Shown piece after piece: positions 11,612 through 37,821 of a stretch of 64,000 nucleotides of DNA. The DNA lies in NCBI RefSeq assembly GCF_018598185.1, contig NZ_JAHESC010000041.1:1-64000 (forward strand), read 5' to 3'. The first letter of the stretch is position 1. Each line of letters starts with the position of its first letter. The position numbers were made by a program, and so were the translations under genes. The notes under the pieces are model-generated. The model was given only the letters and a program-made list of their open reading frames with translations, searched no databases and had not been told where the DNA came from. Source of the stretch: Dawidia soli (GTDB lineage Bacteria; Bacteroidota; Bacteroidia; Cytophagales; Cyclobacteriaceae).

Positions 11612-14600
11612 TCAATTACATTTAGCGGGGTCTATCGAACAATTACTGGTATTGTAGGTAACCGTTATTGCATTCGTGATGCCAGTGACGCCAAAGCCAG
11701 ACACTTTGCAACGTATTGTGAAGTCGAACGGCTGACAAAAATCTACCGCGTAAGAGGCACCGGGCAGAATTTGTATCCAAGTACCCTGACTAAACCTCTC
11801 CCAAATAAATGTGAGATCTTCCGGCGCGTAACCTGGAAAGTCAACCCGGAAGGTCTCTTTATAGTCAGGGCTACAGGCGTCGATTTGAGGCTGAGCCAAT
11901 GACACAAGCGTAAGTTTTGGCATAATTGTCCGCTGCTCCACTTTAAGCGATTTGACGGTTTCGCTTGAACCGAAAACCGCATGGGTAACGATATGCTTTA
12001 CCTCATAGTTACCCGGGGAAGAGAAAACATGTGAGAAACTGGCAGCAGTGGAGACTGGTACTCCGTCAATAAGCCATTGATGTGATACCGGCTGAATACA
12101 GGTTTCTCCCCCTGTTATGACAAGCTGGTCGTTGGCAAACAATCTGCTTTCTTGTGGATAAGGCGTTTTCGTGTATGAAAAATCGGAATAGGGAGCAGTT
12201 GAGGGATCTCCTTGAAACTTATAATCTACTTTCCGCGTGATATTCCTTTTATGGTCGCGATAAACACTGGGGCGGCCCATAAAGTCATACTCGACTATTT
12301 CACACAATCCGTTTGACGTGCTTATCGAAGTCCGCCCAAAGGCTGGGTCATACGTATAGGAGGTGAGCGAAGATGTGCTGGGATAAAAGGATACGTCATC
12401 CATGGCAACGGAAGTTGATGTCGTAACCTCAATCCAAAAACTCGTTCCTGTGATCCCGCTGGTGCCTACTTGTCCTTCTATGAGATCCCACTGATTTGCA
12501 GCCGAAAATGGAAGAGTCAAGAGCATCATGTAAGCACCGTCGGGAACAATGAAAGGATGGATACCAACGGTTTTGACTTTGTATATTTTCACCAAAACAT
12601 TCCCGGAAGTGGATGATTTAACACGCGCGGTAAACCGGAACACCTTGTTTGCAGATTGGGTAACAATTTGATTGAGATCTACTCCTGTGGGCATAATGAG
12701 CGCCTTTTTGCCCGTGTAACCTTCACCATACGATACAGTTCCATTGAGTTTGAATTCATGCCCGGTGATTGTCTCAAACCCGGAGAACACTACCTGGTCA
12801 GGCGTTGCATTGTTGAACTCGGCCACAGCAAGCCGGTCCTCGTATCCCCAATGATGAGAGAACAACCGACCCTTGCCGTTCGTCGTTGTAAGTGGCTTTC
12901 CATTTGAATAATTTAAGAATTCTTCCGAAGTGATATATTGTTCATCCTCAGAGAACTTCTGAGCACCATTAATTGTCTGGAGCGACGACTCCATGAAGCT
13001 TACTGAATACGCTAAGTTTTTTGTAACTGAGGGGAGGGGGAAAGAGGTTTCGTATGTCTTATACTTTGTCAGGGTCGCGGACACAACACCCGATGCACCA
13101 TCCTTTGTTATCGTGGAGAATGTCTCTACAGGTAATCCATGCATGTTGTTTTCGTTGAGTGCTTTTAGTCCGGCGGTGTATTCATCAGCGGCAGTAGAAA
13201 TACCGGCGTAGTCTTTAGCATACTTGTACCGAGTTTGGTAGACCGCACCATCGCTATTCAACATGCTTGTTCTGCTCAGTAAGGGATGTGTGGGCGTATC
13301 ATAATAATATGACTTTACAGTCTCAATGGGTGTTGTCTGACCAGACGGATCAAAAATCTTTTCACGTTCCGTCATAGTCACCTTTCCCGTATTTGTGATT
13401 AATTTATACTCACCAAGTACAACCATATAATCATAGCTCTCGACCTTAAATGCCCTTATTTCGATGGGCGTAGGTGAAATAATTTGATAATCATACGACG
13501 TCGTTTTAACTTGCGCACCTAATTCGTTGTATTCCGATTTAAGGGAAAGCAGCCCTCGTACGAAATCATACTCTCTATTCGGCGGAAATGGATATGCGTA
13601 ATTACCCGTTTGAATGAGCCCGGGGTTGATGCAGCTACCTCTTAATAAACGCACTTGCGTGACATCCCAGTTGAATATGCTGCCGGATTGTTCGATATAT
13701 GATGTTGCAGGATAAACTCCAGGCATCTTATATTCATAAACTATTTTTCCTTTGCCGGGTTCTCGAACACTAACACAGCTATAGCCAATTTCCTGATCTT
13801 GCGACAGATTGTCTTTGACACGATAGGTAATGTTCTGATGAGATCCAAATGTAAACACCGGCGGATATGTAAATGCACCACTGGATTGCCCATTGGATAG
13901 CTTGTACTCATATTCCGTAAGAATGTCATTGTCATGACTAAGACCATCATAAATAGACACTTTCTTCACGCGAACGCCACCGCCCTTGTACGATACGTTT
14001 GCATATGTATCTAAATATTCTTTAGGTTCATATTCCAGGGTCGCACTACCCCCCGGAGGAAAAGTGACTTTTGTAAGCGCCCCGCGACTAATGACCTGGT
14101 CATTAACTTGACGATTTCCCCCTGATAGCGTTGTATTCGGTGAAACGCCAGGCAGCATATTAATACGGTATTTTTCAGGCCCATTGCCAGAATTATAGAC
14201 ATAGATAGTGGGCGCAAGGGTACTGTTGGGTTGATTATTGAAATAGCCCCAATAATCCTGGCTTTTACTTTCAAACACCGGAAGGTTATTTTGCTTAGCC
14301 GCCCAGTTCACGCCTTCGTAGTCAAAGTAGAATGGCGGGTAGCGGTAACATCCGGTGCTTTCTTGTACCGATCGGAGAAAAGACCGCGTTTGAGGACTTC
14401 CCAAGGCGTTATTAATATTCTGAATGTCGATTAGAAAGGATCGGACTTCTCTGCCTAACTTCTCGCTGAATACAATTTTTGATTTTGAGATTGATGCGGC
14501 ATTCGACTCCGCCCGCACAACTTTAAGTTCCCGTTCCTCTATTTCCAACCTCACCTCATTCAGCGTTGTAGCTACATTAGTCTCATTAATGACTTCTACG

Positions 14601-15439
14601 GGGACAGCGTAGTATTTAGTCACAGGTGTGGTGTATCCGAACTCAATCAGACCGCCTAACGGCGACGTGATTTTGCTTAAATGCCAAGTCGATTTGTAGT
14701 TTATCGCAATCGTTCCTTCTTTCATGTAAGTATTGTATTGCCGGCGATAAACTACCACAGGAGATCCGGAGGTGGCGACAGTTTGAATATATTTTACTGT
14801 CTTATCGGCGTCCGAATTCTCGAAGGTATAGCGTGTACCTGTATTTGTGATAATCTCAAACTTTATGAGACCGCTAAACTCCTGTGGGTTGATAAAGTAA
14901 GGAATAATCTTGACATCGAGGTATGGAACCATCCTGATCTGTTTATTTGAGTCGAAGAAGAATTTTCCCGATAATCCAGGAATGCTAAACGAGAATTCGT
15001 CCGGCTCGGTGTCTGTATACGCAAAAGTACCGCTATAAAATGCGGTCCAGTTGGTAGTCTCATCTGTACAGGTTGCTGTGCTATTATCGGCAGTGATCGC
15101 GTAATTTGCTATATCCTGCCCGGTAGTACCAATAAGCCATCCTTTTCTCTGAGTGGATTTATAATCGTCGGGCAAATCCCTCACTTCGCGAACAATTTCC
15201 CCTTGCCCAAGAAGTCGCCAGCCAATTCCATAGTCTTCCGCTTCTTTTCCAGTCTCCGATACCCGTACAGATGCTTTGTTATAAAACAAGCTTAGCGGTA
15301 CCGATAAGTCCTTATCGGTAACACTGGATAACGGGATTTCAATATAAGGATCACCTGTCCGTAGATTAATGGGGATATCGATCTGTGCACAGGCAGGGGA
15401 GCCCATAAGCAGGCACCAGAGGATGCTACGTATTCTCAT
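11612..15439 (-). CDS. large RHS-like surface protein with PKD domain, partner of the toxin
   Basis: The product is 1275 aa from the ATG at 15439, where a signal peptide (MRIRSILWCLLMGSPACAQ) begins. The open frame extends 30 codons further up, but that segment reads like noncoding sequence. The N-terminal part resembles the start of RHS/SpvB-like proteins in Bacteroidetes (DYGIGWRLLGQGEIVREVRD). The middle has scattered YD-type repeats (YEYKLSNGQ, TSYDYQ, YTYDPAFGRTSISTSNGL, YDFMGRPSVYRDH). Near the C-terminus (about 1120-1190) there is a PKD-type domain (SFSHVFSSPGNYEVKHIVTH). No toxin tip is seen. It is the first gene of the three-gene minus-strand module and probably helps display or assemble the toxin at the surface, which is inference. 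Confidence 0.75.
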   Translation of the reverse strand: MRIRSILWCLLMGSPACAQIDIPINLRTGDPYIEIPLSSVTDKDLSVPLSLFYNKASVRVSETGKEAEDYGIGWRLLGQGEIVREVRDLPDDYKSTQRKGWLIGTTGQDIANYAITADNSTATCTDETTNWTAFYSGTFAYTDTEPDEFSFSIPGLSGKFFFDSNKQIRMVPYLDVKIIPYFINPQEFSGLIKFEIITNTGTRYTFENSDADKTVKYIQTVATSGSPVVVYRRQYNTYMKEGTIAINYKSTWHLSKITSPLGGLIEFGYTTPVTKYYAVPVEVINETNVATTLNEVRLEIEERELKVVRAESNAASISKSKIVFSEKLGREVRSFLIDIQNINNALGSPQTRSFLRSVQESTGCYRYPPFYFDYEGVNWAAKQNNLPVFESKSQDYWGYFNNQPNSTLAPTIYVYNSGNGPEKYRINMLPGVSPNTTLSGGNRQVNDQVISRGALTKVTFPPGGSATLEYEPKEYLDTYANVSYKGGGVRVKKVSIYDGLSHDNDILTEYEYKLSNGQSSGAFTYPPVFTFGSHQNITYRVKDNLSQDQEIGYSCVSVREPGKGKIVYEYKMPGVYPATSYIEQSGSIFNWDVTQVRLLRGSCINPGLIQTGNYAYPFPPNREYDFVRGLLSLKSEYNELGAQVKTTSYDYQIISPTPIEIRAFKVESYDYMVVLGEYKLITNTGKVTMTEREKIFDPSGQTTPIETVKSYYYDTPTHPLLSRTSMLNSDGAVYQTRYKYAKDYAGISTAADEYTAGLKALNENNMHGLPVETFSTITKDGASGVVSATLTKYKTYETSFPLPSVTKNLAYSVSFMESSLQTINGAQKFSEDEQYITSEEFLNYSNGKPLTTTNGKGRLFSHHWGYEDRLAVAEFNNATPDQVVFSGFETITGHEFKLNGTVSYGEGYTGKKALIMPTGVDLNQIVTQSANKVFRFTARVKSSTSGNVLVKIYKVKTVGIHPFIVPDGAYMMLLTLPFSAANQWDLIEGQVGTSGITGTSFWIEVTTSTSVAMDDVSFYPSTSSLTSYTYDPAFGRTSISTSNGLCEIVEYDFMGRPSVYRDHKRNITRKVDYKFQGDPSTAPYSDFSYTKTPYPQESRLFANDQLVITGGETCIQPVSHQWLIDGVPVSTAASFSHVFSSPGNYEVKHIVTHAVFGSSETVKSLKVEQRTIMPKLTLVSLAQPQIDACSPDYKETFRVDFPGYAPEDLTFIWERFSQGTWIQILPGASYAVDFCQPFDFTIRCKVSGFGVTGITNAITVTYNTSNCSIDPAKCN

Positions 15440-15610
15440 GAACAATGAATAAGGAAACTGGCTATTTGGATACTTTTTTCTTAGGTATGTCAGATGCCAA
15501 CGGTAATAACCCACAAAATCACAAACCAACAGAGCGTTTCAGCATCGTTGTTACAAACTGCAAATTATTAGCGTAAAAAACAAGATATTAACACTTATAA
15601 ATTCTTATCA

Positions 15611-15792
15611 GTCAGCGTTGACAAGAGCGCACACCTGCTGCTTTACCCGACCTTTGGCAAACGCGGTATGCTGTTAGAGACGTTCGACTATACCGACCTT
15701 GTCGGCCATGACAAAAACTCCTCGACATCGCACAGGTTTTCACCGTTGGCGAGGCGCCCTGGTCGCGCGACCTCATCGGGCAGAAAGTATAA
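15611..15792 (+). pseudogene. C-terminal remnant of an unidentified gene
   Basis: Read on the plus strand, this stretch encodes a protein-like tail, DKSAHLLLYPTFGKRGMLLE up to TDLVGHDKN. After a one-base shift near an A5 run at about 15711-15715 it continues as LLDIAQVFTVGEAPWSRDLI and stops at 15792. The composition reads as real protein broken by a frameshift and missing its 5' part. I do not recognise the family. The rest of 15440-16070 holds the 44-bp repeat and the A+T-rich leader of the WYL gene. Confidence 0.4.
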
Positions 15793-15866
15793 CCCAACTA
15801 CGCTGTGAGTGAGGGAATAAGACCAAAATAGGATCGAATTTCAGGTGACCGGACAAAATCTATTAT

Positions 15867-15910
15867 AATCAACAAATTTCAACAACTCTGAACAGTTTTG
15901 AACGTTGGAA
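15867..15910. repeat. 44-bp repeat, right copy
   Basis: Counterpart of 6624-6667 in the same orientation, with 36 of 44 positions matching. It lies downstream of the gene remnant and 160 bp before the WYL regulator. The site therefore marks the junction between the toxin module and the defence island. Confidence 0.65.
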
Positions 15911-16070
15911 ACGTCCGAGCAGTAGCGGGGCGGAATAGTGCAAAGTATCAACACGTTGGAAGGGATGATGGTGAATTGCTTCAGCAGATCAGCTAAAATC
16001 TTTCAAATCAAGCTATTTTTAGGTTTTTTTAGCTATAATGGCTCCAATTTAGTCATTAAACTGCCTGGCT

Positions 16071-17066
16071 ATGCCGAAGACCCGAAAACCCCAAGAAAGG
16101 GCTGAAATTCTGGATGAACTGCTGGCTCATCGAAACTGGACCGGGAATGAATTGTTGGAACAGGTAAATCAAAAACTCCAGAATTTAGATGAAAAGCCCG
16201 TAGATATGCGTACACTCAGGAGAGATCTGAACTATCTGGAATTGAAAGGCGCACCGCTTCACAGGCCAAAGAAAGGTGATATGACATATTCGTATGAATA
16301 TAAATTTTCCTTAAAGGATGTACCACTCGATAGCGATGATTTGCGGGCTTTAAAACAGGCGATAAATATTTTACGAAAGGTTGAGAACTTTCAAATGATG
16401 GATGAATTGGATTTAATAATTGGGAAGCTTGCCAACCGGATACACACTAATGTACCGGACAATCAAACAATTGTTCAGTTTGAAAATCATACCAGTGCGA
16501 AAGGAGCCCAATGGTTCAATGAACTGTTTGACTCTATCCGTGAGCAAACTACACTGGATATTTTATATCATTCCTATAGACACGCGGAACCAAAAGAGCA
16601 CGTTGTCCATCCTTATCTATTGAAAGAGTATCGTAACCGATGGTGGCTTATTGGCCGCGAAGACAAGTCAAATAAAGTTTTGACACTTGGTCTCGATCGA
16701 ATTCAGAAAGTAAAAGTATCCAAGCAAAAATTTAAGTTTAATGATCTATTCCACCCGGACACGTTTTTTGATAAGGTGATTGGTGTGTCCATGGACTACG
16801 ACAAAAGCCCAGAGGATATCACTTTAAGAGTCAATCCAGTATCAGTTCGGCACGTTGAGTCGAAACCTATTCATAAATGCCAGGAACCAGTTAGAATGGA
16901 ACGTGATGGAAGTCTTGTAATAAAACTCAATTTGATCATCAACTATGAATTGAAGGCAACAATACTTGGGTTTGGCGATGGAATTGAAGTCCTTGAACCT
17001 TTGACATTAAGAGACGAAATTAAATCCATCCTTGAGCGATCTCATAGCCAATACCGACAGACGTGA
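16071..17066 (+). CDS. WYL-domain transcriptional regulator
   Basis: A 331-aa regulator. The N-terminal part (about 1-70) is a winged helix (ERAEILDELLAHRNWTGNEL, then DMRTLRRDLNYLELKGAPL). A helical linker follows. The WYL domain lies at about 155-235 (LDILYHSYRHAEPKEHVVHP, then YRNRWWLIGRED), and a WCX-like C-terminus ends near 325. Proteins with this layout (BrxR, CapW) repress phage-defence operons and are thought to be released by a nucleic-acid ligand. It is the first gene of the defence island on the plus strand, 48 bp before the methylase-kinase gene. The dyad GTGAC-N7-GTCAC at its 3' end and the copy before CBASS are candidate binding sites. A TATAAT-like box at 16034-16039 and AGCTA repeats lie upstream. 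Confidence 0.88.
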   Translation: MPKTRKPQERAEILDELLAHRNWTGNELLEQVNQKLQNLDEKPVDMRTLRRDLNYLELKGAPLHRPKKGDMTYSYEYKFSLKDVPLDSDDLRALKQAINILRKVENFQMMDELDLIIGKLANRIHTNVPDNQTIVQFENHTSAKGAQWFNELFDSIREQTTLDILYHSYRHAEPKEHVVHPYLLKEYRNRWWLIGREDKSNKVLTLGLDRIQKVKVSKQKFKFNDLFHPDTFFDKVIGVSMDYDKSPEDITLRVNPVSVRHVESKPIHKCQEPVRMERDGSLVIKLNLIINYELKATILGFGDGIEVLEPLTLRDEIKSILERSHSQYRQT

Positions 17067-17114: not shown

Positions 17115-19937
17115 ATGACATTACACGAAGCAATCGAGCGGGTTTTGATGGAATATGGACGACCAATGACAACTGGAGAAATTGTTCGTGCAATAAAAGA
17201 TAGGAATCTCTATGAAAGGGAGGATGCCGAAAATCTTTCGACTTTTCAGGTTTCGGCTAGGATAAGCAGTTACCCTGAGTTGTTTGATAGAATTGGCGAT
17301 GAAATCGTTATGCGCAATAGGTCTTCTGATTCCTTGTTGAGCCTGCTATTTCACATATCCGATAGGTTAAGACCCAAGACCATTTACAACCTTGATTTAG
17401 TCATAGGATATTTACTGTTTTATTTCCGAGCCTCTGGGAATTATCTGGGTGAAGAGTATTTTAGTGGCTATAGGTTCGATAGAAATATTGACTTCGCCCA
17501 TGGGTATAACGAACATTTGAAGTCAAAAATCCTCGATTCGATTAAAAGATTTACAAGGCATGTCAATTTTTTAGATTTGGATGAAGAGTTAATGTCAACA
17601 TTCAAGAAGTTATCGCACAACAATCTAATCGAGATTGTTGGCGAACTTCAATATTTTGATTTTGAATACAGTTCAATAAGCGAGAGCGAGTTTGCTGATA
17701 CTTTCAATAATTTTCTTAATTCCTTTTCAGGATGGGGACGCGATAGTGGAGAGTCCATCACACCAACAAACATTGCCAGGTTCATTTCTACAATTGTTCA
17801 TGTTGCTCCCTATGAGAATTTGTGCGACCCGTTTGCTGGAAACGGAGGACTAGCAAGCGAAATACTAAAGGGACATTCTGGATATGGGTGTGTATTTCAA
17901 GACATCAATCCGGTGAGTGTCATGCTGGGACGCATGAACTTGATCCTCCATGGGGTTAAGGAAGTCAGCTACCATATAGGTAACACACTTGATTTATTTT
18001 CTAATCATCTAAATGACAGGAAATTTGACTACGTGGTTACACATCCTCCATATGGAGTAAGATACCACCAACATGACTTCTATAAGCTTCCTCCTAATTT
18101 TTTACCTTCCAATTCGAGAGGCGAGAATGTGCATATTCAGCTAGCTGTTCATCTATTGGCTGATTATGGTAAGGCCGTAATACTGATACCTGATGGTTTC
18201 TTATTTACGAATGATAAAGGGTCAAAAGAAATCAAATATTGGCTACTTCATAACGATTGGATCGAAGCAGTTTATTCGCTGCCCGTTGGCAGCCTTAAAC
18301 CATACTCTGCAGCCAACACATCAATTCTTGTAATCAACAAAAATAAAACACCGCAGCAAGCTAGGCAGATTCTTTTCAAAGAAGTAAGTGAAAATGAATT
18401 AGAGTCAGGTCAAGTGCGCAACACCGGAATGGCGACACTGTTCGAGCCCTATGAATTCTATGATAACTCAAAGAGTAATCGAACGACAGTGATCGACTTG
18501 AATGAGGTTTTTGATAATGATCTCTTACTAAACGTCAACAGATACCTTGACAGGATTGAACTTGGGCCGGAATATCAACCCATCCACACTGTACTGGCAA
18601 ATCATTCAATTGGAGTTGCTGTACCAAAAAAGCATCTTGATTCGAAAGAGGGAATTCCTTACATAACAATTAAAGATCTATCAAGTTCCGATGAGGATTT
18701 CTTACTTCCCCAGGAAAGCATCACAACTTTCATCAATAAGATGTCAATAATTAAACCGCACTATATTGTGCGCGGAGGGGCAATATTAATTGCAAAAGTT
18801 GGCACTAAACTAAAACCAACATTATTTGCTGGGAGCTCCGCAGCGTTTAGTTCAAATATTATAGCGCTTTATCCGAATGAAGATTTGGTGATTAGCGAAT
18901 ATCTCATTACTCAATTCAATGAACCATATTTTCGACAACAGTTGAATCAAATAAGGGGCGGTGCAGTACAGGTTTTTGTTCGATTAGAAGACTTTCTTCG
19001 ACTGAAAATCAAAGTACCAACGCTCGAAAGCCAGGAGAAAGAACTTCTTCAAATTTTTAGGCTGCGGGAACATTCAATAAAATCCATTAAAGGAGAACGG
19101 GAGCAGGATGAAAAATCGGCACAGCGTGTCCTTTTCTCAGCTATTAAACATGAGTTTTCTAATCTGCATGTTGTTCTGTCCGGCGGTATTACCTCAATTA
19201 AGCTTTACCTTGATGGAAAAGCCAAGAGCGGAGGTATAGCTTGGGACGATAAAATTGTTAATCTTCCAGACTCTCGTACAATTCAACAGCTCATTTTCCA
19301 ACAAGAATTGGTTCTTCAGGAAATGGGGTCATTGTTTGATGACGTACAGGCGCTATTAGCGCTTGACCGATCACAACTAAGAAAGGAAAGAGTTGTTCTT
19401 AGATCATTTATTCAGGATCAGGTTGACCTAATGAAAGGTCAACTAAGAGATGTTGAAGTAACCGTTGGATTGACGGAGAAGTCGAGGAAGGACCGGCTCG
19501 TAGTGAACATTGATAAACCACTCTTCGCCAAGGTCATTAAGAATTTTTTAACGAACAGCGTCAAGCATGGATTCGCAAATACAACGTTTGATCAAAGATT
19601 GATTGCATTTGATGTTTCTGTTTCAGAGGATGAACTATCGGTGGAATTAACCATGATGAACAATGGCAACAAATTCCCAGATGGCTTTACGTTTGAAGAT
19701 TTTATCTCATTCGGGGTTAAAACGGGCAGTAATAAGGGTGCAGGCATTGGCGGTTTCCTGATAAATGAGGTGGTTAAATTTCACGATGGAACATTTGAAG
19801 AATTGAAATTTCCAGAGGGAGCAACTTTGTATATTGCAACCCACTCAGTTTCAACAGGTAAAGAAGCCAACGCTGTATTATCAAAGGCCTTCATTCCGGG
19901 CGTAGGATTTAAAATAAGGCTTCCATATAACGACTAA
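17115..19937 (+). CDS. fusion: HARE-HTH, N6-adenine methylase, target-recognition-like region and histidine kinase
   Basis: A 940-aa protein with an unusual order of domains. Residues 1-67 are a HARE/HB1-type winged helix (TLHEAIERVLMEYGRPMTTG, then EIVRAI). Residues about 205-470 are a type I/HsdM-like N6-adenine methylase: the SAM motif DPFAGNGG lies at 238-245, and motif IV is HPPYG at 310-314, with His where Asn, Asp or Ser is usual. Residues about 490-660 look like half an HsdS recognition unit (IPYITIKDLS, LIAKVGTKLKP, KIKVPTLESQEKEL). Residues 665-940 form a histidine kinase: phosphoacceptor-like H679 in KHEFSN, N-box NFLTNSVKHG (about 811-820) and G-box GAGIGGFLINEVV (about 875-887). 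The response regulator starts 1 bp after its stop, then hsdM. It probably marks or senses DNA and signals by phosphorylation. That is inference; I know no characterised protein of this form. Confidence 0.8.
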   Translation: MTLHEAIERVLMEYGRPMTTGEIVRAIKDRNLYEREDAENLSTFQVSARISSYPELFDRIGDEIVMRNRSSDSLLSLLFHISDRLRPKTIYNLDLVIGYLLFYFRASGNYLGEEYFSGYRFDRNIDFAHGYNEHLKSKILDSIKRFTRHVNFLDLDEELMSTFKKLSHNNLIEIVGELQYFDFEYSSISESEFADTFNNFLNSFSGWGRDSGESITPTNIARFISTIVHVAPYENLCDPFAGNGGLASEILKGHSGYGCVFQDINPVSVMLGRMNLILHGVKEVSYHIGNTLDLFSNHLNDRKFDYVVTHPPYGVRYHQHDFYKLPPNFLPSNSRGENVHIQLAVHLLADYGKAVILIPDGFLFTNDKGSKEIKYWLLHNDWIEAVYSLPVGSLKPYSAANTSILVINKNKTPQQARQILFKEVSENELESGQVRNTGMATLFEPYEFYDNSKSNRTTVIDLNEVFDNDLLLNVNRYLDRIELGPEYQPIHTVLANHSIGVAVPKKHLDSKEGIPYITIKDLSSSDEDFLLPQESITTFINKMSIIKPHYIVRGGAILIAKVGTKLKPTLFAGSSAAFSSNIIALYPNEDLVISEYLITQFNEPYFRQQLNQIRGGAVQVFVRLEDFLRLKIKVPTLESQEKELLQIFRLREHSIKSIKGEREQDEKSAQRVLFSAIKHEFSNLHVVLSGGITSIKLYLDGKAKSGGIAWDDKIVNLPDSRTIQQLIFQQELVLQEMGSLFDDVQALLALDRSQLRKERVVLRSFIQDQVDLMKGQLRDVEVTVGLTEKSRKDRLVVNIDKPLFAKVIKNFLTNSVKHGFANTTFDQRLIAFDVSVSEDELSVELTMMNNGNKFPDGFTFEDFISFGVKTGSNKGAGIGGFLINEVVKFHDGTFEELKFPEGATLYIATHSVSTGKEANAVLSKAFIPGVGFKIRLPYND

Positions 19938-19938
19938 C

Positions 19939-20862
19939 ATGATCAAGATTTTATTAAGTGATGACAACGAGGCATTCCGGACGTCCAGCCGGGAGATTGG
20001 AGCTGCGCTCGACTGTGACTTAAATTGTTATGATGACTGGGAAAGCGCCCAAGTAGAATTGGACACTAACTTTAATACATATCATGCTGTTGTTATAGAT
20101 GGCAAAGGGCGGTTACGTGATAGTTCGAAAGGGGAAGATCCCAGACACCTGCTGGAGGCAGTAATATGGTTACGCGAGCAGCGGGCAAAAGGAAGATTCG
20201 TGCCCGTTGTTGTTTATACCGGATTCCATCCAGACATTGAACCGGTAACGACTCTCAACGATCAAATTCTCAAAGTCTTTGATAAATCAAAAACGAAATT
20301 TGAGGATGTTCTTAAGTTTCTTAAAACGGAAGCCTCTAAACTCCCATCAGAAAGACTTAAAAATAGCTATCCAGCTGTATTTAACTTTTCTGCCAAGTAC
20401 TTCAATAAAGAGAAGCACGAGCTTTTAATTGAGCTGTTGGACGGATTAAATAATGGTCTTCATGACTTTGTCAGGAAGAAGACGACCTTAGACGCGCTTC
20501 GGTTACTAAATGAGGCCCTGGTTGACACCATTCCTCTACATTATTATAGCGCACCGTTTGAGCTGAGAACTTACATTGAAAAAATAAACCGAGAAAATCC
20601 ACCAAAGCGCCCAGCAAATATGGGTAATCGAACTGTCGCTATTGTGGATTTCTTTGTCGTTGATTTTAAAGCAAAAACTCATACTGAATTTCCCTCATAC
20701 TTAGTCAATACCATTAAAAATATTTACTACACGGCATCCACCTATGCTTCACACAATCCTGAAACAGTGGGTGCCGACTACCCTTCCTCTGAAATGATCT
20801 TGGGATTAGTATATTCCCATTTTGGATGTTATCATTGGTTCAACTCTATTATTACAGACTAA
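19939..20862 (+). CDS. response-regulator protein paired with the methylase-kinase
   Basis: A 307-aa protein. Residues 1-125 form a receiver-like domain: acidic pair D8-D9, phosphoacceptor D54 in VVIDGKG, a Thr in VVVYTG and a Lys in VFDKSK. About 180 C-terminal residues follow that are mostly helical and match no DNA-binding output domain I can name. The effector action is therefore unknown; it could bind the restriction enzyme, act as a toxin-like output, or be a scaffold. The gene sits 1 bp after the methylase-kinase and 1 bp before hsdM. Such close spacing suggests translation coupled to the restriction genes. Confidence 0.75.
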   Translation: MIKILLSDDNEAFRTSSREIGAALDCDLNCYDDWESAQVELDTNFNTYHAVVIDGKGRLRDSSKGEDPRHLLEAVIWLREQRAKGRFVPVVVYTGFHPDIEPVTTLNDQILKVFDKSKTKFEDVLKFLKTEASKLPSERLKNSYPAVFNFSAKYFNKEKHELLIELLDGLNNGLHDFVRKKTTLDALRLLNEALVDTIPLHYYSAPFELRTYIEKINRENPPKRPANMGNRTVAIVDFFVVDFKAKTHTEFPSYLVNTIKNIYYTASTYASHNPETVGADYPSSEMILGLVYSHFGCYHWFNSIITD

Positions 20863-20863: not shown

Positions 20864-22399
20864 ATGCTAACAGGCGAACTACGTTCACAAATCGATAAAG
20901 TATGGGACACCTTCTGGTCGGGAGGTTTGGCCAACCCATTGCTGGTAATGGAACAAATTACCTACCTCCTTTTCATTAAAAGACTTGATGAGATTCAAAC
21001 GCTAAAAGAGAAGAAAGCTAATGATCTTGGCAAGCCCATTGAAGAACCCGTTTTTACAAAAAAACAGTATGAGCTAAGGTGGAGTAAGTTCAAGGACAAG
21101 GATGCCGAAACCATGTACCAACTCTTTACAAAAGATGAAGGTGTCTTTGCATTCATCCGTTCATTGGGTTCAAAATCGAATAGTACTTTTAGTCGCTACA
21201 TGAAGGGCGCTACGTTCATGATCCCAACGCCCCGCTTGCTTTCACTCGTCGTGGATTTGCTCAATAAGATCGACATGAGCAACCGCGACACGAAAGGAGA
21301 TGTGTATGAGTATCTTTTGAGTAAGATCGCAAGTGCAGGGCAGAACGGACAATTCCGCACGCCACGTCACATCATCAAATTGATGGTAGCGATGATGGAG
21401 CCGTCACTCGATGACATTGTCTGCGACCCCAGCGCGGGTTCATGCGGGTTTCTGGTAACAGCGAGCGAATACGTTCGCGAAAAGCAAACTAAAGATTTGC
21501 TGAAGACGGAAAACAAAAGACATTTTGAGAACAAGATGTTCATGGGTATGGAGTTCGACCCAACGATGTTGCGTATTGGTGCCATGAACATGATGCTGCA
21601 CGGCATAGAGGGCGTTCAATTGAAAGATGTGGATGCGTTAAGCCAGGCGAATGCCGGGTTCTTTGATGCCTGTACGCTTGTGCTTGCTAACCCGCCATTC
21701 AAAGGAAGCCTCGATGAAGATGTGATCTACGCCGAGCTGACGAAAACAGTGAAGACCAAGAAGACCGAGTTGCTGTTCCTGGCATTAATGCTACGTGGAC
21801 TAAAAAGTGGTGGACGCGCTGCCGTGATAGTGCCCGATGGCGTACTCTTTGGAAGTAACAAAGCCAATGTAGATCTGCGGAAAGAAATTGTCGAACGCCA
21901 TCATTTACAAGCGGTGATCTCGATGCCGAGTGGAGTTTTCAGACCTTATGCTGGAGTGAGTACCGCTATCCTGATATTCACGAAGACTGGCAACGGAGGA
22001 ACCAAAGATGTGTGGTTCTACGAAATGAAAACTGATGGCTACTCACTCGATGACAAGCGTACGCCTCAGGCACCCGAGTTTGAAACATTCAAACAATTAG
22101 AGGACAATACAGAGATGAATGACACTGATCTGCCACACATTTTGCACATCTGGAAAAATCTAAAAGCACATCACAAAATGCTGGATAAACTTCCCGAAAA
22201 GGGCAGGAATACGAAAAGCTTTTTTGTTACTAAGGACGAGATAGCTCAAAATAGATATGATTTAAGCATGAATCGATATCGAGTCATCGATCATGTGGAG
22301 GTAAAGTATGATAAGCCAACGAACATCATTAAAGCAATTCGCAAACTCGACGAACAACGAAGTAAAGAATTGTTACAACTTGAACTGCTGTTGAAATGA
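20864..22399 (+). CDS. hsdM: type I restriction-modification methylase subunit M
   Basis: N6-adenine DNA methyltransferase of a type I restriction system, which forms M2S with HsdS and joins HsdR. The product is 511 aa from the ATG at 20864, where the typical start MLTGELRSQIDKVWDTFW begins; the open frame reaches 14 codons further up into the response-regulator gene. An HsdM N-terminal helical bundle (1-140) precedes SNRDTKGDVYEYLLSKIA and FRTPRHIIKLMV, the SAM motif DPSAGSCGF at 188-196 and the catalytic NPPF at 276-279. All key residues are present, unlike the odd motif IV of the neighbouring methylase-kinase. The stop overlaps the hsdS start by 4 bp. Confidence 0.96.
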   Translation: MLTGELRSQIDKVWDTFWSGGLANPLLVMEQITYLLFIKRLDEIQTLKEKKANDLGKPIEEPVFTKKQYELRWSKFKDKDAETMYQLFTKDEGVFAFIRSLGSKSNSTFSRYMKGATFMIPTPRLLSLVVDLLNKIDMSNRDTKGDVYEYLLSKIASAGQNGQFRTPRHIIKLMVAMMEPSLDDIVCDPSAGSCGFLVTASEYVREKQTKDLLKTENKRHFENKMFMGMEFDPTMLRIGAMNMMLHGIEGVQLKDVDALSQANAGFFDACTLVLANPPFKGSLDEDVIYAELTKTVKTKKTELLFLALMLRGLKSGGRAAVIVPDGVLFGSNKANVDLRKEIVERHHLQAVISMPSGVFRPYAGVSTAILIFTKTGNGGTKDVWFYEMKTDGYSLDDKRTPQAPEFETFKQLEDNTEMNDTDLPHILHIWKNLKAHHKMLDKLPEKGRNTKSFFVTKDEIAQNRYDLSMNRYRVIDHVEVKYDKPTNIIKAIRKLDEQRSKELLQLELLLK

Positions 22400-23556
22400 A
22401 TTGGAAACTCACTTCTTTGTCATCAGTAGCAGAAATAATTTCCGGGCAATCGCCCGAATCGAAGTATTACAATACTTCTGGTGAAGGAATGCCGTTCTTT
22501 CAAGGCAAGGCAGACTTTAATGACACCCATCCTACAGTACGTTACTATACAAATAAGGCAACTAAGATTGCAATTCCAAATGACATTTTGCTGTCAGTTA
22601 GGGCCCCAGTAGGACCAACTAATATCTGCAATATTGAATCGTGTATTGGAAGAGGGCTCGCAGCAATTAGACCTGGAAAAGAATTACATTTCAAATATGC
22701 CTACTATTTTTTTAAATCTATAGAAGAAAAATTAGCAGCATTGGGAAATGGCTCTACTTTTTCCGCAATAACTAGCGGTGTTGTTCGAGATATTCAGATT
22801 CCTGTACCTTCTTTAACTATTCAAAAAAAGATTACCAACATACTTGATGCGGCCGATCGCCTTTGTCATAAGGATAAACTGCTCCTTGAGCATTACGACC
22901 AACTATCCCAAAGTATCTTTCATGACATGTTTGGTAATATCACAATAAATGAACGGAACTGGCCATTAAAGAAATCTGAGGACTATCTGACCAAACTAAC
23001 AGTTGGAGTGGTGGTAAAACCCGCATCATATTATACCGAAAAGGGTGTCATTGCATTACGGTCATTGAATATTAAACCCAATAGAATTGATCTTGGAAAT
23101 TTAGCCTATTTTTCCAAGGAGGATAACGAGAAGCTACTTTCAAAATCAATTCTACGTGAGGGTGATGTTGTTTTTGTGAGGACAGGGATTCCTGGAACTG
23201 CTGCTGTTATTCCAAAAGAGCTTGATGGTTGCAATTGTATAGATTTAATCATATCTCGGCCCAAAGACAATGTAATCCATCCAATCTATTTAGCATACTT
23301 GTTCAATTCTGAAGAGGGTAAAATGATTGTCTCATCAAAAAAAGTTGGTGGAATTCAAAAACATTTCAATATTGGTGAATTCAGAAAACTTAAAATTCCG
23401 ATACCAGATTTCAATCTTCAAAAAAAATTTGCTCAGATTATGAAGGTTATTCATTTGGAAAAGAGCCTAGCTGCGCACTCCTCAATTAAATCCGGGGAAC
23501 TTTTTCAGAATCTTCTCCAACAAGTCTTCAAAGGTGAATTTGTAAAAGAACACTAA
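22396..23556 (+). CDS. hsdS: type I restriction specificity subunit S
   Basis: A 386-aa specificity subunit with two target-recognition domains. TRD1 (about 1-150) starts with WKLTSLSSVAEIISGQSPES and ends with a conserved region around IQKKITNILDAADRL. TRD2 (about 190-340) begins near KSEDYLTKLTVGVVVKP and ends with LQKKFAQIMKVIHLEKSL. The two helical conserved regions act as spacers that set the distance between the half-sites of the recognition sequence. The start codon lies within the end of hsdM (ATGA overlap). The length is normal for the family. The recognised sequence cannot be predicted from this. Confidence 0.95.
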   Translation: MNWKLTSLSSVAEIISGQSPESKYYNTSGEGMPFFQGKADFNDTHPTVRYYTNKATKIAIPNDILLSVRAPVGPTNICNIESCIGRGLAAIRPGKELHFKYAYYFFKSIEEKLAALGNGSTFSAITSGVVRDIQIPVPSLTIQKKITNILDAADRLCHKDKLLLEHYDQLSQSIFHDMFGNITINERNWPLKKSEDYLTKLTVGVVVKPASYYTEKGVIALRSLNIKPNRIDLGNLAYFSKEDNEKLLSKSILREGDVVFVRTGIPGTAAVIPKELDGCNCIDLIISRPKDNVIHPIYLAYLFNSEEGKMIVSSKKVGGIQKHFNIGEFRKLKIPIPDFNLQKKFAQIMKVIHLEKSLAAHSSIKSGELFQNLLQQVFKGEFVKEH

Positions 23557-23562
23557 ACTCTT

Positions 23563-23593
23563 ATCTTGGTAAGATGTAGCTAACCCTTGGTTA
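23563..23593. promoter_or_regulatory. two adjacent small dyads between hsdS and hsdR
   Basis: The 41-base gap holds ATCTT-GGT-AAGAT (23563-23575) and TAACC-CTT-GGTTA (23581-23593), both perfect with 3-base loops. The second ends 4 bases before the hsdR ATG. They could form small hairpins that slow hsdR translation, so that methylation is set up before restriction. This is suggestive only. Confidence 0.35.
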
Positions 23594-23597
23594 ACAG

Positions 23598-26500
23598 ATG
23601 GCCTCTAATTTCTCATTCTTCCAACAGGATTTCCCTGGTCTTTACGAACTCTGCACTGAAGCAGAGAAGGTTGCCATTAGTCAGGCCGATGTGTCGCTTA
23701 TTTTGTCGCGCAAATGCCTGGAGGCAATGGTGAAGTCGGTTTATAAAATAGAAAACCTGGCATACCCTGCTCTGCGTGATGAAAAAGCGAAGCCAACACT
23801 TGGCGTACTCCTTTTCAATGGGAGCTTTCTCAATCATACCCAACTAGCTCGATACATTATTACCGACAGTTATGGCAAAAGACACAATACCGGTCTCATG
23901 CAAAGTGCAGACATCGTGTTACATGCAGGTAACGATACCATTCATTTGGATCATGATTTCGACCCACGACAAAGCATAGGCAAATCAAAGTCAAATAAGG
24001 CCAAAGTCATTTTGCGTAACTTACACAATGTGGCCACTTGGTTTTACTATCGATATGCCGGTGCTGATGGTCAGCAAGTGAATGCCTTTGATCCCACGCT
24101 TGTCAAACCCGTTAGCCCCACTGTGCCAGTTGCCGAACTTGAGAAGCTTGATCTTGACAACCTCAAGGTTCGCAAGTCCAACAAAGAGCTTAAAAAGCAG
24201 TTGCTCTCCAGCAAGCCTCATGTGTTGGTCATTGACGAAAAGCAAACACGCAAAGACTATATTGATCTTGCATTGATGGATGCCGGTTGGGATCTGGATG
24301 CCGCCAATGTAAAAGAGTATCCGCTTGTCAGCGGCAAACGCGCAGATTATGTGCTGTGGGGTGATGACGGTAAACCACTTGCTGTTGTAGAAGCCAAGCG
24401 CACCATGCATGATCCTCAAGTTGGCCAAGGCCAGGCCGAAGGGTATGCTAATGAACTGGAGCAGCAATTCGGCCAGCGCCCGGTTATTTTCTTCACCAAT
24501 GGTTTAACCATCTGGTTGTGGGATGATCACCCTTCGTTGACCTACGTGCCACGGCCCGTGCAAGGGTTTTATCGAAGAGAAGAACTTGAACGCCTGATAA
24601 GTCGCAGGGAGCGAAAGCCGTTGCTGATCTCGAATATCAACAACACCATCATCGACCGGCTCTACCAGACCAAAGCACTCGAGAGTATTGCCGAGGCATT
24701 TTCGAAAGAGAAAACTAGAGCAGCATTGTTAGTGATGGCTACCGGGTCAGGTAAAACACGTACAGCCGCTGCGCTGGCAGATTTCCTCAGCAAAGCACAT
24801 TGGGTGAAGAACGTTTTGTTCCTTGCCGATCGAGACTTCCTTGTAACGCAAGCCAAGGCAGACTTTACACAGTATCTCACCGAATATTCATTAAGTGATC
24901 TGCGCGATGATAAGGACCCATTGCGAAGTCGTATAGTATTCTCAACCTATCAAACACTACATAACGTGATTGATGGTGCGAGAGAAAAAGATGGCAGCCG
25001 CACTCTCGGTCCTGGTTTTTTCGATCTGATTGTATTTGATGAAATCCACCGTAGCGTGTACAACAAATACAAAGCGATCTTTTATTATTTCGATGGATTC
25101 AAAGTTGGGTTGACTGCGACACCAAAAAAAGATAAAGACAAAAATACCTATCGGATTTTTGGCCTTGAAGATAAAGATCCGACCTACTCATTCGAGTTAG
25201 AAGATGGCGTTGCTCTTGGAGTTTTGAAGCCATTCAAGCGAGTTCCGGTTCAAACAAAGTTTTATTCGGAAGGCATTACATATAAAGACCTGAAGAATGA
25301 TGAGGAGAAGGCGCACTATGAGGAGAAGTTTACTGATCCTGACACGGGAGAAATACCTGATGCCGTTGCAGCCTCTCAGGTTCATCAATGGATCATGAAT
25401 AAAGATACCGTTCGCATGATTCTTGAAAAATTGATGGAAAAGGGATTACGCGTGGCTGGTGGTCAACGTATTGGAAAGACGATCATTTTTGTAAGCAGGC
25501 GTGAACATGCGCTGTTTATGATGGATGTCTTCAATGAGATGGAGCCTAAAGATGGCGGAAAATTGCTACGTGTAATTGATGGGAAAGATAAATCACGCTA
25601 TGATGATTTCCGCACCGCAGAGAAGCTTCCACAGATTGCCATAACCGAAGACTTGTTGGAAACCGGGGTCAATATTCCGGAGATTGTAAATTTAGTTTTC
25701 TGTAAACCAGTGCGTTCATACACTAAGTTCTGGCAGATGTTGGGACGCGGTACCAGGCCAGTTAAAGACCTTTTTGGCCCGGGTCTTGATAAACACCATT
25801 TTCTGGTATTTGATTGGTGTCATAATTTTGAATTCTTCGATGAAAATCCGGAAATAGATAGCAGCAGTAGAAACAAAACGTTAGGTGAGCGCTATTTCAA
25901 TAGCAGACTGAAGTTGGGGCGAGCTCTTATTGAACAAAAGGAAAATTCCCTCCATCAATTAGGATGCATATTAGTGGATGAGCTTCAAAGCGAGGTAAGA
26001 ACCCTCGATATTAAAAGTTATGCAGTAAAAGCTGAACTCTCATATGTCGAGAAATACAAGAGCATTGAGAATTGGTATGCTCTTGCCAAGCCTGCGGTAC
26101 GCGACATTATCGAACACATCAGTCCATTGGTGAGACAAACCACAGAGGCGGACAATGAAGAAGATGCACTCCGTTTCGACACTAACGTGATGACTTTGCA
26201 AGAGCAACTGTTGACCAAAGATCCGGAGCAGGAATTGAGCACAACGCGGATTAAGCGAATTGCAGAAGGATTATTAAAAAAACGAACAATGCCATCTGTT
26301 CTTCAGAAAGAACCGTTGATTCGTTCTCTTTTAAAGGATGAATACTGGGCAAATGTCACTCTACCTCAGTTGGAAGAAGTTCGTAAGGAACTACGGGATC
26401 TTGTCCGCCATGTTGATAAAGAATATCGTACTGTCATTTACACCAACTTCACGGATACGTTTACGGGGAATCTTGCCGAGGAAGAAGTCCAAACCTATGC

Positions 26501-26975
26501 CAGCTTTACGTCAGCTGATTACAAACGAAGAATGGAGAGTTTGATCTATCAACACAAAAATGATCTCGTTATTCAAAAGATAAGAACTGCTCAACCGATC
26601 ACTGTTGATGAAGCGAACAGACTTAGCGACATTTTTTTTGCAGAGAGCAGGATACAGGACAAAGAAGCATATTTGAAAGCATTGGATGGCAAACCTTTGA
26701 CAGAACTCATCAGGCGCTCACTCGGTCTCGATCAGGGAGCCGCCAATGAAATTTTCAATTCTTTCGCAAAAACTCATAATGCCACGACAGAGCAATTTTC
26801 CGTACTCGAACTCTTGATTAATTCCTACATCTCAAACGGAATCGTTGAAAAGGATATGTTATATGAGTCGCCATTTATCGATGACGGCAAGGGACTGGAC
26901 AACTTTCCGGACAAAGACCGGAAGGAACTTCTTCAGCTTATCGACCGGATAAACCAAAGCATACAGGTAGCATAA
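23598..26975 (+). CDS. hsdR: type I restriction endonuclease subunit R
   Basis: The ATP-driven translocase and nuclease of the type I system, 1125 aa. It starts with a DUF4145-like region (about 10-135). A nuclease domain at about 215-300 has D250 in ADYVLW and E265-x-K267 in AVVEAKR. SF2 motor motifs are MATGSGKT (380-387) for ATP binding and DEIHR (481-485), with VGLTATPK following. Helicase C-terminal motifs include ITEDLLETGVNIPE and QMLGRGTRP. A C-terminal helical region (about 800-1120) should bind the M2S complex, as in the EcoEI-like group. Nothing is missing, so the set hsdM-hsdS-hsdR looks functional. The end is followed by a 124-base gap holding a short hairpin and the CBASS-side dyad. 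Confidence 0.96.
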   Translation: MASNFSFFQQDFPGLYELCTEAEKVAISQADVSLILSRKCLEAMVKSVYKIENLAYPALRDEKAKPTLGVLLFNGSFLNHTQLARYIITDSYGKRHNTGLMQSADIVLHAGNDTIHLDHDFDPRQSIGKSKSNKAKVILRNLHNVATWFYYRYAGADGQQVNAFDPTLVKPVSPTVPVAELEKLDLDNLKVRKSNKELKKQLLSSKPHVLVIDEKQTRKDYIDLALMDAGWDLDAANVKEYPLVSGKRADYVLWGDDGKPLAVVEAKRTMHDPQVGQGQAEGYANELEQQFGQRPVIFFTNGLTIWLWDDHPSLTYVPRPVQGFYRREELERLISRRERKPLLISNINNTIIDRLYQTKALESIAEAFSKEKTRAALLVMATGSGKTRTAAALADFLSKAHWVKNVLFLADRDFLVTQAKADFTQYLTEYSLSDLRDDKDPLRSRIVFSTYQTLHNVIDGAREKDGSRTLGPGFFDLIVFDEIHRSVYNKYKAIFYYFDGFKVGLTATPKKDKDKNTYRIFGLEDKDPTYSFELEDGVALGVLKPFKRVPVQTKFYSEGITYKDLKNDEEKAHYEEKFTDPDTGEIPDAVAASQVHQWIMNKDTVRMILEKLMEKGLRVAGGQRIGKTIIFVSRREHALFMMDVFNEMEPKDGGKLLRVIDGKDKSRYDDFRTAEKLPQIAITEDLLETGVNIPEIVNLVFCKPVRSYTKFWQMLGRGTRPVKDLFGPGLDKHHFLVFDWCHNFEFFDENPEIDSSSRNKTLGERYFNSRLKLGRALIEQKENSLHQLGCILVDELQSEVRTLDIKSYAVKAELSYVEKYKSIENWYALAKPAVRDIIEHISPLVRQTTEADNEEDALRFDTNVMTLQEQLLTKDPEQELSTTRIKRIAEGLLKKRTMPSVLQKEPLIRSLLKDEYWANVTLPQLEEVRKELRDLVRHVDKEYRTVIYTNFTDTFTGNLAEEEVQTYASFTSADYKRRMESLIYQHKNDLVIQKIRTAQPITVDEANRLSDIFFAESRIQDKEAYLKALDGKPLTELIRRSLGLDQGAANEIFNSFAKTHNATTEQFSVLELLINSYISNGIVEKDMLYESPFIDDGKGLDNFPDKDRKELLQLIDRINQSIQVA

Positions 26976-27057: not shown

Positions 27058-27099
27058 ACTTGGTGAGTTATTTTGAATATTCAAAGTAATCAAATCTAT

Positions 27100-28092
27100 A
27101 TGCGGCTTAATAACGGACAACTGGAAAACTTTATCACCCGAATCAAACTGAAGCGGGATGATATGCCCAAGTTTAGAACTCAGATTAACAATCTGCGAGA
27201 AAAACTTGAAGAAAAAATTAAGAATGACAAGAGAACCGGGTTAAAAGTAACAAGGTTCATTATTGCGGGTTCCTGGAAAAAAGGTACCATACTTCGACCA
27301 ACAGGAGAACATCCAATCGATGTTGATCTCGTTCTTTACGTTGAAGGTGATGAGAACATACAGGGTGACCTAAAGAAACTGCACGATTTCGTAGTTGAGT
27401 ATCTCAAGGAAATATACCCAACGAAAGACATTAACCGGGACGTGGATGCTGAGGGTAATACAAAGTCCATCAAGATCACCTTCACAGGAACCGGATTGGA
27501 GATGGATATTGTTCCAGTTGTTCCATTATCATCGCATAAAGAATATGTGGTTCAGCCTCAGCGTGGTGGTGGTGGAAAGAAATACATCACGAGCGTAACA
27601 AAACAGCTTGACTTTGCTCAGGGAAGAAGATCGAAGAATTCATCCTACACAGCAATAGTTCGAGCGATCAAGTGGTGGCGTAATTACAAAGAACTAAAGC
27701 CGGTTGATGATGAATCTGGCATTTCTTCCTTCGCGATTGAACTTATTGCTGCCCATCTTGAAATTACGAAAGGGTGTGCACAGAGCATTGAAGATGGATT
27801 GCTTCGCTTCTTCAAGTTTGTAAGCGATCCCGGATTTCCTGTCATCACTTTCAAAGATGCCATTGGGAAAGTACCCTCATACGATACTCCGATATTCGTA
27901 TCGGATCCCACTAATAACGAAAATAATGCTGCAAAAAAGCTAGATGATAAAATCTGGAAAGAGGTGGTAGCGGAGGCTAATGATGCTTTCGAATCACTAT
28001 GCATCGCCCAATCTAAAAACTTCGAGGGCGAAACAATTGAGGAGTGGAACCGGGTATTTGGATCATCTTTTAACATCGAACCAACGGAATAA
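27100..28092 (+). CDS. CBASS CD-NTase (cyclic oligonucleotide synthase)
   Basis: First enzyme of the CBASS operon; on phage infection it would make a cyclic nucleotide that activates the effector. The nucleotidyltransferase motif is clear: IAGSWKKGT with G66-S67, D83 and D85 in IDVDLVLYV, and third acid D145 in EMDIVPVVP (numbered from the TTG at 27073). A helical C-terminal domain follows. The start is set at the ATG at 27100, since related proteins begin near LNNGQLENFI; the frame is open from TTG 27073. HORMA and TRIP13-like genes follow within a few bases, which defines a type III CBASS. The clade, and thus the product, cannot be read off with certainty. Confidence 0.92.
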   Translation: MRLNNGQLENFITRIKLKRDDMPKFRTQINNLREKLEEKIKNDKRTGLKVTRFIIAGSWKKGTILRPTGEHPIDVDLVLYVEGDENIQGDLKKLHDFVVEYLKEIYPTKDINRDVDAEGNTKSIKITFTGTGLEMDIVPVVPLSSHKEYVVQPQRGGGGKKYITSVTKQLDFAQGRRSKNSSYTAIVRAIKWWRNYKELKPVDDESGISSFAIELIAAHLEITKGCAQSIEDGLLRFFKFVSDPGFPVITFKDAIGKVPSYDTPIFVSDPTNNENNAAKKLDDKIWKEVVAEANDAFESLCIAQSKNFEGETIEEWNRVFGSSFNIEPTE

Positions 28093-28094
28093 CC

Positions 28095-33723: not shown

Positions 33724-33840
33724 GACCAGCACTAAACACTGATTGTACGCAATAAGCGGATGGCCAAACGTGAATTAAGATACTAAAAATACCTGATATT
33801 CAATCACATAAGACCAAACACCTAGACTAGAATTAAACAT

Positions 33841-37795: not shown

Positions 37796-37821
37796 GTCGA
37801 TTCGACCAGGAACAACTAGAT

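Follow-up and report, generated by a model that had tools for sequence, protein, structure and literature searches.

The window studied here is a stretch of 64,000 nucleotides from Dawidia soli (positions 1 to 64,000 of contig NZ_JAHESC010000041.1, assembly GCF_018598185.1), which contains an operon that places a protein made of an N6-adenine methylase part and a histidine kinase part (hereafter the fusion), together with a receiver protein, ahead of a type I restriction-modification (R-M) set. The original prediction, made from the sequence alone, had described a four-part fusion of 940 amino acids (aa) followed by a receiver and by hsdM-hsdS-hsdR, and this layout was confirmed by open reading frame (ORF) and Pfam analysis and, for the receiver, by structure prediction. 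The features are as follows.

16071-17066, + strand: WYL/WCX-domain regulator, first gene of the operon (Pfam WYL 1.4e-13, WCX 2.6e-12)
17115-19937, + strand: 940-aa fusion of HARE-HTH, HsdM-like and probably inactive methylase, single HsdS-like recognition domain, and histidine kinase
17688-18554, + strand: N6-methylase part of the fusion, aa 192-480 (Pfam N6_Mtase 3.1e-36)
18624-19085, + strand: single target-recognition domain of the fusion, aa 504-657 (Pfam Methylase_S 1.3e-5; PADLOC Specificity_I)
19023-19358, + strand: predicted dimerization and histidine phosphotransfer (DHp) domain, helix 637-704 through H679 (codon 19149-19151) and helix 723-748 (AlphaFold2)
19515-19802, + strand: kinase catalytic domain HATPase_c, aa 801-896, with N814, N849/G851, and G877/G879
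19939-20862, + strand: 307-aa receiver with an N-terminal REC domain (D54 codon 20098-20100) and a helical C-terminal part with conserved R188, E192, and H272
20864-22399, + strand: hsdM (Pfam N6_Mtase 5.6e-60, HsdM_N), catalytic motifs intact (DPSAGSC, NPPF)
22396-23556, + strand: hsdS, two recognition domains (Pfam Methylase_S, two stretches)
23598-26975, + strand: hsdR, EcoAI/EcoEI-like, with helicase, HSDR_N nuclease, and EcoEI_R_C (Pfam, above gathering scores)

The fusion ORF starts with ATG and stays open over 940 aa, and the receiver gene lies 1 bp behind it. The start of hsdM was taken as the ATG at 20864, 1 bp past the receiver stop; the mechanical ORF list gives a TTG at 20822. According to Pfam and PADLOC, 20864-26975 holds a complete type I set, consisting of HsdM, a two-domain HsdS, and an HsdR with helicase and nuclease. 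HsdR matched PADLOC REase_I (6e-141) and reached 250 bits with the NCBIfam EcoAI model, below its cut-off of 550.

Domains of the fusion and the receiver

The fusion begins with a HARE-HTH (aa 1-62; Pfam 1.8e-7). Its HATPase_c match (Pfam 1.1e-5) scored 26.3 bits, 0.1 bit short of the gathering score (26.4), and the kinase profile matched the solved histidine kinases 3a0r (1.2e-15, positions 61-261) and 3dge (9.8e-14, 2-250 of 268). H679, the N box (N814), and the G-box positions were found where the original prediction had placed them. In the AlphaFold2 model of the fusion, whose best solved matches were HsdM and methyltransferase (MTase) structures, including 7eew_A (5.6e-22), an intact MTase of Vibrio vulnificus, one continuous helix (637-704) runs from the end of the recognition domain through H679 and is followed by a second helix (723-748). 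The proposed structure prediction thus yielded an HsdM-like head and a helix linking the recognition domain to H679. Because long conserved helices in HsdS space the recognition domains and dock HsdM, helix 637-704 is a plausible signal path from the recognition part to the kinase in this model.

The window receiver carries D8, D9, D54, T94, and K116. Its model shows a receiver fold of alternating strands and helices (mean predicted local distance difference test [pLDDT] 75), and Foldseek matched it to the solved receivers of KdpE, PhoB, and PorX, for example, 1zh2_B with E 1e-4 and a template modeling score of 0.79 by target length, so that the structure prediction proposed for this protein agreed with solved receiver domains. 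A profile of 18 receiver-family members also matched the solved response regulator 3jte (E 4e-5). The Pfam receiver models gave no match to the receivers scanned; the window receiver had only two chance-level Pfam matches (E 0.10 and 0.13) and none in PADLOC or NCBIfam at E <= 0.1.

Conservation of the pair and apparent exchange of its neighbors

When 395 genomes from the phylum of the window were searched with the fusion, several matches spanned methylase and kinase, and a profile search of the class passed 12 of 395 genomes, one of which (G583) matched over the methylase part only. A scan of species genomes gave, among the matches listed, 77 loci, 17 of them with a fusion, of which two were dropped as duplicates (L058 and L062 were taken as duplicates of L049 and L029, with the same gene coordinates or lengths). 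The comparison set of at least 34 distinct loci comprises the window, 10 loci of the first round, 8 of the class profile search, and 15 of the species-genome scan; L033 and L034, which are methylases without a kinase, and the 60 non-fusion loci of the scan were excluded. The set is not exhaustive because long frames that matched over the methylase only (e.g., G141, G185, G201, and G319) were left out. Alignments were made of 11 loci (A1 and A2), 19 loci (A3), 5 loci (A4), and 18 loci (A5 and A6, the window and the 17 fusion loci of the scan).

The set consists of Bacteroidota in the GTDB sense and one contig of an Oceanicaulis metagenome-assembled genome (MAG). The species-genome scan contributed, among the matches listed, Cloacibacterium, Weeksella, Flavobacterium, Maribacter, Gelidibacter, Parapedobacter, Chryseosolibacter, Alistipes, Sabulibacter, a Saprospiraceae MAG, Aliifodinibius, a Balneolaceae MAG, and the Oceanicaulis contig. 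The head of the Oceanicaulis fusion (L129) was recognized by the family profile (model positions 35-840, E 8e-35) and not by Pfam; a search of the phylum of that MAG returned only the MAG itself (1 of 398 genomes), and its 6-kb contig could be misbinned. A plasmid search found the order WYL, fusion, "hypothetical protein", methylase, S subunit, two more genes, and R subunit on Myroides pFM-G13. The phage collection gave no nucleotide match, and 48, 1, and 90 pattern matches in viral_contigs included none confirmed as this system. Separately, a phage record from human feces that is marked unverified (MT835483; L146:6530-17398) holds WYL, fusion, receiver, hsdM, hsdS, and hsdR in the order of the window.

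In every one of the 34 loci, the gene next downstream of the fusion shares its strand, with a median gap of 1 bp when the earliest starts are taken. In 33 of them it falls into one BLAST cluster with the window receiver, and in L028 it was assigned as a receiver by its receiver motifs and alignment. Independently, the receiver profile detected the partner in all 8 loci that the class search had contributed and, among the matches listed, in 17 of 17 fusion loci of the species-genome scan, with no match at E <= 1e-3 in the other 60 stretches of that scan. The pairing is not due to chance, since fusion and receiver recur in the 34 distinct loci compared. At E <= 1e-12, the receiver family was found in 11 of the 395 phylum genomes, a low frequency in which divergent members are missed, such as the receiver of the sampled genome G289 (L028).

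The residues that a phosphorelay would need are conserved as well. A DHp with a phospho-accepting His, together with N and G boxes, was present in 34 of 34 fusions, with H679, N814, N849/G851, and G877/G879 all kept. A receiver fold with the acidic pair, Asp, T/S, and Lys was present in all 34 partners: D9, D54, and K116 are invariant, 31 partners have D and 3 have E at position 8, and 23 have T and 11 have S at position 94. The search for homologues and gene neighbors that had been called for thus placed the pair in many genera. It had also been reasoned that homologues with a decayed GHKL fold and no receiver neighbor would overturn the proposal; the opposite was seen, and a decayed fold without a partner is contradicted by the conserved kinase boxes and the adjoining receiver gene in every locus.

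In the C-terminal part of the receiver, H272 is kept in 34 of 34 members, R188 in 33, and E192 in 31. The 18 receivers scanned for domains contained S1/CSD-like domains of TOTE conflict systems (6), OB_RNB (5), a phage single-stranded DNA (ssDNA)-binding-protein model (2), DUF3039 (1), and DUF4145 (1), and the window receiver matches none of these extra domains. The C-terminal part may bind protein or nucleic acid. One receiver of the family (L028:2438-3385) has SLFN_AlbA_2 (Schlafen AlbA_2) as its output part.

The methylase head shows a different pattern. N6_Mtase was found in 17 of 18 fusions scanned with Pfam. The consensus of N6-methylase motif IV is (D/N/S)PP(Y/F); the window fusion has an intact motif I (DPFAGNGG, at 238) and a motif IV that departs from this consensus (HPPY, His310), so that it does not have both motifs of an active N6-adenine methylase. 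His at this first position (HPPY or HPPF) recurs in 4 of 34 fusions. Of the 34 fusions, 7 have an intact motif I and 12 an intact motif IV when judged by alignment column; a single regular expression finds motif I in 11, motif IV in 10, and both in 1, the fusion of L049. The same expression found motif I in 23, motif IV in 30, and both in 23 of 32 neighboring methylase-cluster proteins, two of which (605 and 628 aa) look HsdS-like and are among the nine in which motif I was missed. These comparisons suggest that the methylase of the fusion is probably inactive in most members.

Kinase and receiver have diverged together: their pairwise distances correlated with r = 0.81 (n = 33; L048 was omitted from the distance tests as a near-duplicate of L047), a value reached by 0 of 5000 permutations, whereas the correlations of the kinase with HsdM (r = 0.19, n = 22, reached by 42 of 5000) and with WYL (r = 0.24, n = 24, reached by 26 of 5000) were weak; receiver distances gave 0.26 with HsdM and 0.37 with WYL. 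In the 18 loci common to these tests, the values were 0.66 for kinase-receiver, 0.06 for kinase-HsdM, and 0.12 for kinase-WYL. The joint divergence of kinase and receiver against the weak correlation with HsdM reads as a cassette that was inherited together while hsdM was exchanged.

A separate methylase whose motif IV is intact occurs within seven genes in 27 of 34 loci and a WYL relative in 25 of 34, and a BLASTP match to the window HsdR lies nearby in 16 of 34, window included. Ten other neighboring genes were scanned, of which those in L025, L030, and L067 are GmrSD-type, those in L055 and L024 encode AAA_5 and NACHT ATPases, and one protein in L023 gave no match. In L029 (12997-18806), genes for an AAA_15 ATPase and a UvrD-like helicase, which we take to be Gabija-like, lie downstream of fusion and receiver.

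The receiver search of the 395 genomes gave 11 matches, of which ten are the known fusion loci (window included) and the eleventh, in G066, belongs to a CRISPR operon. That operon (L143:604-12187) has the order cas10/csm1, a gene of 134 aa, three RAMP-family genes (one with Csm4_C), kinase, receiver, a Csx1-CARF gene whose match is under its cut-off, and cas6, behind which lies an array of 30 repeats (14024-16364). The operon would be type III-A because it has Csm1 and Csm4 domains. Its kinase-like protein of 763 aa lacks a methylase and matched HATPase_c under the cut-off and the family kinase profile at 3.6e-28; the receiver follows at 0 bp (profile 4.5e-44), and all relay residues of the pair are kept. 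A search for this kinase returned only G066 itself among 197 genomes of its class, and none among the plasmids searched.

The surroundings of the operon in the window hold further candidates. Directly behind hsdR, at 27073-30324, are CBASS genes for a CD-NTase, a bacterial HORMA protein, TRIP13, and a two-transmembrane effector with SMODS-associated NUDIX (Pfam and PADLOC). Behind these genes, 30312-31223 encodes a 303-aa protein in which an R-x-K-I-I-H stretch was seen by eye and for which Pfam, NCBIfam, and PADLOC gave no family match. At 32278-33732, FTCD_C (formiminotransferase-cyclodeaminase) is joined to an IrrE/M78 peptidase resembling CapP/RmrA (PADLOC), apparently an unusual fusion near defense genes. 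Visual inspection suggested a STAND-like NTPase (GGIGKTT) at 36914-39195 and, in an adjoining frame, a TPR-like ORF, which together may be one interrupted gene; judged in the same way, the translation of 205-1422 resembles a tyrosine recombinase.

Proposed signaling and its alternatives

By sequence comparison a relay is well supported: the genes are paired, the relay residues are conserved, kinase and receiver diverge jointly, a receiver fold is predicted, and the methylase motifs have decayed. The signal, the phosphotransfer itself, and the output are what we infer from this. We consider it fairly probable that the locus encodes a two-component relay embedded in an R-M system, in which DNA is sensed by a head of decayed methylase and half-S, and a His-Asp relay driven by this head gates restriction. 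As a soluble sensor kinase, the fusion would have an input head composed of a catalytically decayed HsdM and one half of an HsdS, which binds or docks on DNA or on the M/S complex and probably no longer methylates. The head may be triggered when it engages foreign DNA or a stalled restriction complex, and its state would then travel along the continuous helix to the dimerization domain, leading to autophosphorylation on H679 and transfer of the phosphate to D54 of the adjacent receiver. The helical C-terminal part of the receiver could then license or boost a nearby effector, which would be HsdR here and GmrSD-type or other enzymes at other loci, and the WYL regulator probably sets expression. 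The original prediction had the fusion reading methylation state or bound DNA and the receiver controlling restriction or killing the cell. Its kinase with a receiver of its own in a type I operon holds in many genera; the reading of methylation and the control of restriction or killing by the receiver were left unsupported.

Several observations weigh against a DNA-sensing relay of this kind or narrow its basis. The departed motif IV may still permit some activity, motif I is intact in the window fusion, and the L049 fusion passes both motifs. Confidence in the two structure models is moderate (mean pLDDT 72 for the fusion and 75 for the receiver), and the C-terminal part of the receiver has no firm family, the DUF4145 match in 1 of 18 receivers being at E 0.008. 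The loci are related and not independent. They were kept only if the match reached the kinase part, so that kinase-less members would be missed, and the ten first-round receivers themselves built the receiver profile. Conservation of the N box and G1 is partly built in because 15 of the 34 loci were found by patterns over them; H679 and the G2 glycines lay outside those patterns. Kinase and methylase parts of the same protein correlated with only r = 0.54, so that the low correlations elsewhere partly reflect fast or poorly alignable sequence. No separate methylase lies within seven genes in 7 of 34 loci, some of which are on short contigs. Finally, of the 24 loci with an HsdS-like neighbor, 1 has a fusion whose recognition domain matches the HsdS of its own locus best; because the domain is not preferentially similar to the neighboring HsdS, the idea that both read the same site is without support and weakened.

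The pair might instead serve expression alone, as a local two-component regulator of transcription or translation of the R-M operon that would, for example, delay HsdR in a new host and would not act on the restriction complex. We regard this as unlikely: none of the 18 receivers scanned showed a helix-turn-helix output domain, the window receiver has no nucleic-acid-binding match, and a sensor head akin to a DNA-engaging enzyme fits DNA sensing better. The position of the pair in an operon behind a WYL regulator would nevertheless suit such a role, and the S1/CSD-like (6/18), OB_RNB (5/18), and phage ssDNA-binding-protein (2/18) matches point to nucleic acid binding by receivers. For the related HEF_HK/Response_reg_2 pairs discussed below, the authors speculated that signaling controls R-M systems (PMC8011034; here and below, statements on cited papers refer to the parts of them at hand).

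Conserved residues in the C-terminal part of the receiver (H272, R188, and E192), the S1/CSD-like additions, the Schlafen AlbA_2 of L028, and the CBASS operon that follows in the window would also be in keeping with a second tier of defense, in which the relay fires this part as a toxin-like effector, causing cell arrest or RNA attack, once restriction fails. No toxin family matched the window receiver in Pfam, PADLOC, or NCBIfam; PADLOC gave three matches in the 18 receivers, each in one member at E 0.002-0.005 and one of them to AbiEii, and the R-x4-6-H motif of HEPN RNases was not visible by eye in the receiver. Detocs, a two-component system in defense whose effector cleaves ATP (PMC11249213), is a precedent; we nevertheless consider this reading decidedly unlikely. 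That the methylase is active, with the kinase part as an ATP-driven structural module like that of paraMORC/GHKL ATPases and the receiver as a scaffold, is highly improbable: the intact motif I of the window, HPPY/HPPF in 4 of 34 fusions, and the L049 fusion speak for it, but the phospho-accepting His and the receiver Asp persist in 34 of 34 loci while the methylase motifs decay, and the kinase profile matches histidine kinases.

The CRISPR-linked pair leads us to a broader proposal, which we hold tentatively, that the relay is a modular immune phosphorelay. One kinase-receiver cassette would be plugged as a signal transducer into different defense systems, with a dead methylase and half-S as the receptor for foreign DNA in R-M systems and other heads elsewhere, as in L143. 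This single example hints at a signaling part common to unrelated defense systems. The prevailing view is that restriction systems decide locally, enzyme by enzyme, whether to cut; if the relay proposed here is true, DNA recognition is converted in some bacteria to a phosphate signal by which nucleases, timing, or cell fate can be gated. H679 and D54 provide a concrete, testable residue pair for how R-M systems are licensed in the cell, and the relay offers a reading for genes annotated as "N-6 DNA methylase" and "hypothetical protein", as on the Myroides plasmid.

Relation to known systems

Type I systems need no kinase or receiver; the three downstream genes form a complete set, and the kinase and receiver of this operon are an addition to it. 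MADS has a methylase and S subunits, and a kinase is found in another part of the system. With NCBIfam, MADS2 reached 40 bits for the fusion and 103 for HsdM (cut-off 720) and MADS5 reached 47.5 for HsdS (cut-off 400), no other MADS model matched the six operon proteins at E <= 0.1, and PADLOC mad2 and mad5 ranked below general type I models in the best 25 matches per list. Membership in MADS was rejected because the MADS2 and MADS5 matches are far below the cut-offs. PDC-M43, a PADLOC phage-defense candidate, also has an adjacent receiver and histidine kinase, without a methylase. The window holds a second receiver and histidine kinase pair (33960-35629) that matches PDC-M43 A and B (PADLOC), and this pair gave no match to the kinase and receiver profiles of the fusion family.

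Detocs is a three-gene family whose best-described effector is a purine nucleoside phosphorylase (PNP) that cleaves ATP, and it is not known to have R-M genes or a methylase-derived sensor. No PNP-type Pfam match was found among the operon proteins, and other Detocs effectors exist. As a defensive two-component system, Detocs shares two-component signaling with this operon and devotes it to phage defense (PMC11249213).

The nearest relatives in the literature are the R-M-linked, two-component-like pairs HEF_HK (PF19191)/Response_reg_2 (PF19192) predicted in 2021 (Bellieny-Rabelo, PMC8011034). They likewise consist of a soluble histidine-kinase-like protein and a divergent receiver encoded by adjacent genes beside R-M systems, and the H box of the window fusion reads KHEF, as in HEF_HK. 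They differ in that their N-terminal part is mostly the paraMORC-like HATPase_c_3 and that they lie mostly beside type II R-M systems with C5-methylases, and the account at hand describes no fusion to a methylase or recognition domain (PMC8011034). PF19191 and PF19192 matched none of the 18 fusions and 18 receivers scanned at E <= 0.01 and none of the window proteins at E <= 1, and in separate checks of the two models the positive controls gave no match either; HATPase_c_3 was not among the 15 families found in the 18 fusions, N6_Mtase taking its place in 17. Membership in HEF_HK/Response_reg_2 was rejected on these grounds.

CapK/CapS also employs a GHKL kinase to control defense operons; it differs in phosphorylating a serine of a STAS-domain repressor, and the part of the account at hand describes no methylase or receiver (PMC13373217). 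Related themes are the paraMORCs (PMC2292703), Schlafen proteins with a minimal histidine kinase in BREX loci (PMC12839542), the type III CRISPR-linked receiver Cam2, which has no kinase (PMC11229360), a BarA/UvrY-like pair that regulates CRISPR in Marinomonas (PMC8523701), and HATPase and REC, which a figure legend for DefensePredictor lists among predicted systems (PMC13092281).

No description of a methylase-histidine kinase fusion was found in the literature searched, which excluded preprints, subscription papers, supplements, and the HARE-HTH review PMC3272235. The earlier statement that no defense system of this form had been described held for the architecture itself and gave way for the signaling, R-M-linked pairs having been predicted (PMC8011034) and Detocs (PMC11249213) being known. 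The operon is real and conserved and, as far as these searches reach, represents an undescribed, probable phosphorelay embedded in an R-M system. Its methylase-derived sensor is the new part; two-component relays that are defensive or linked to R-M systems are already known or predicted.

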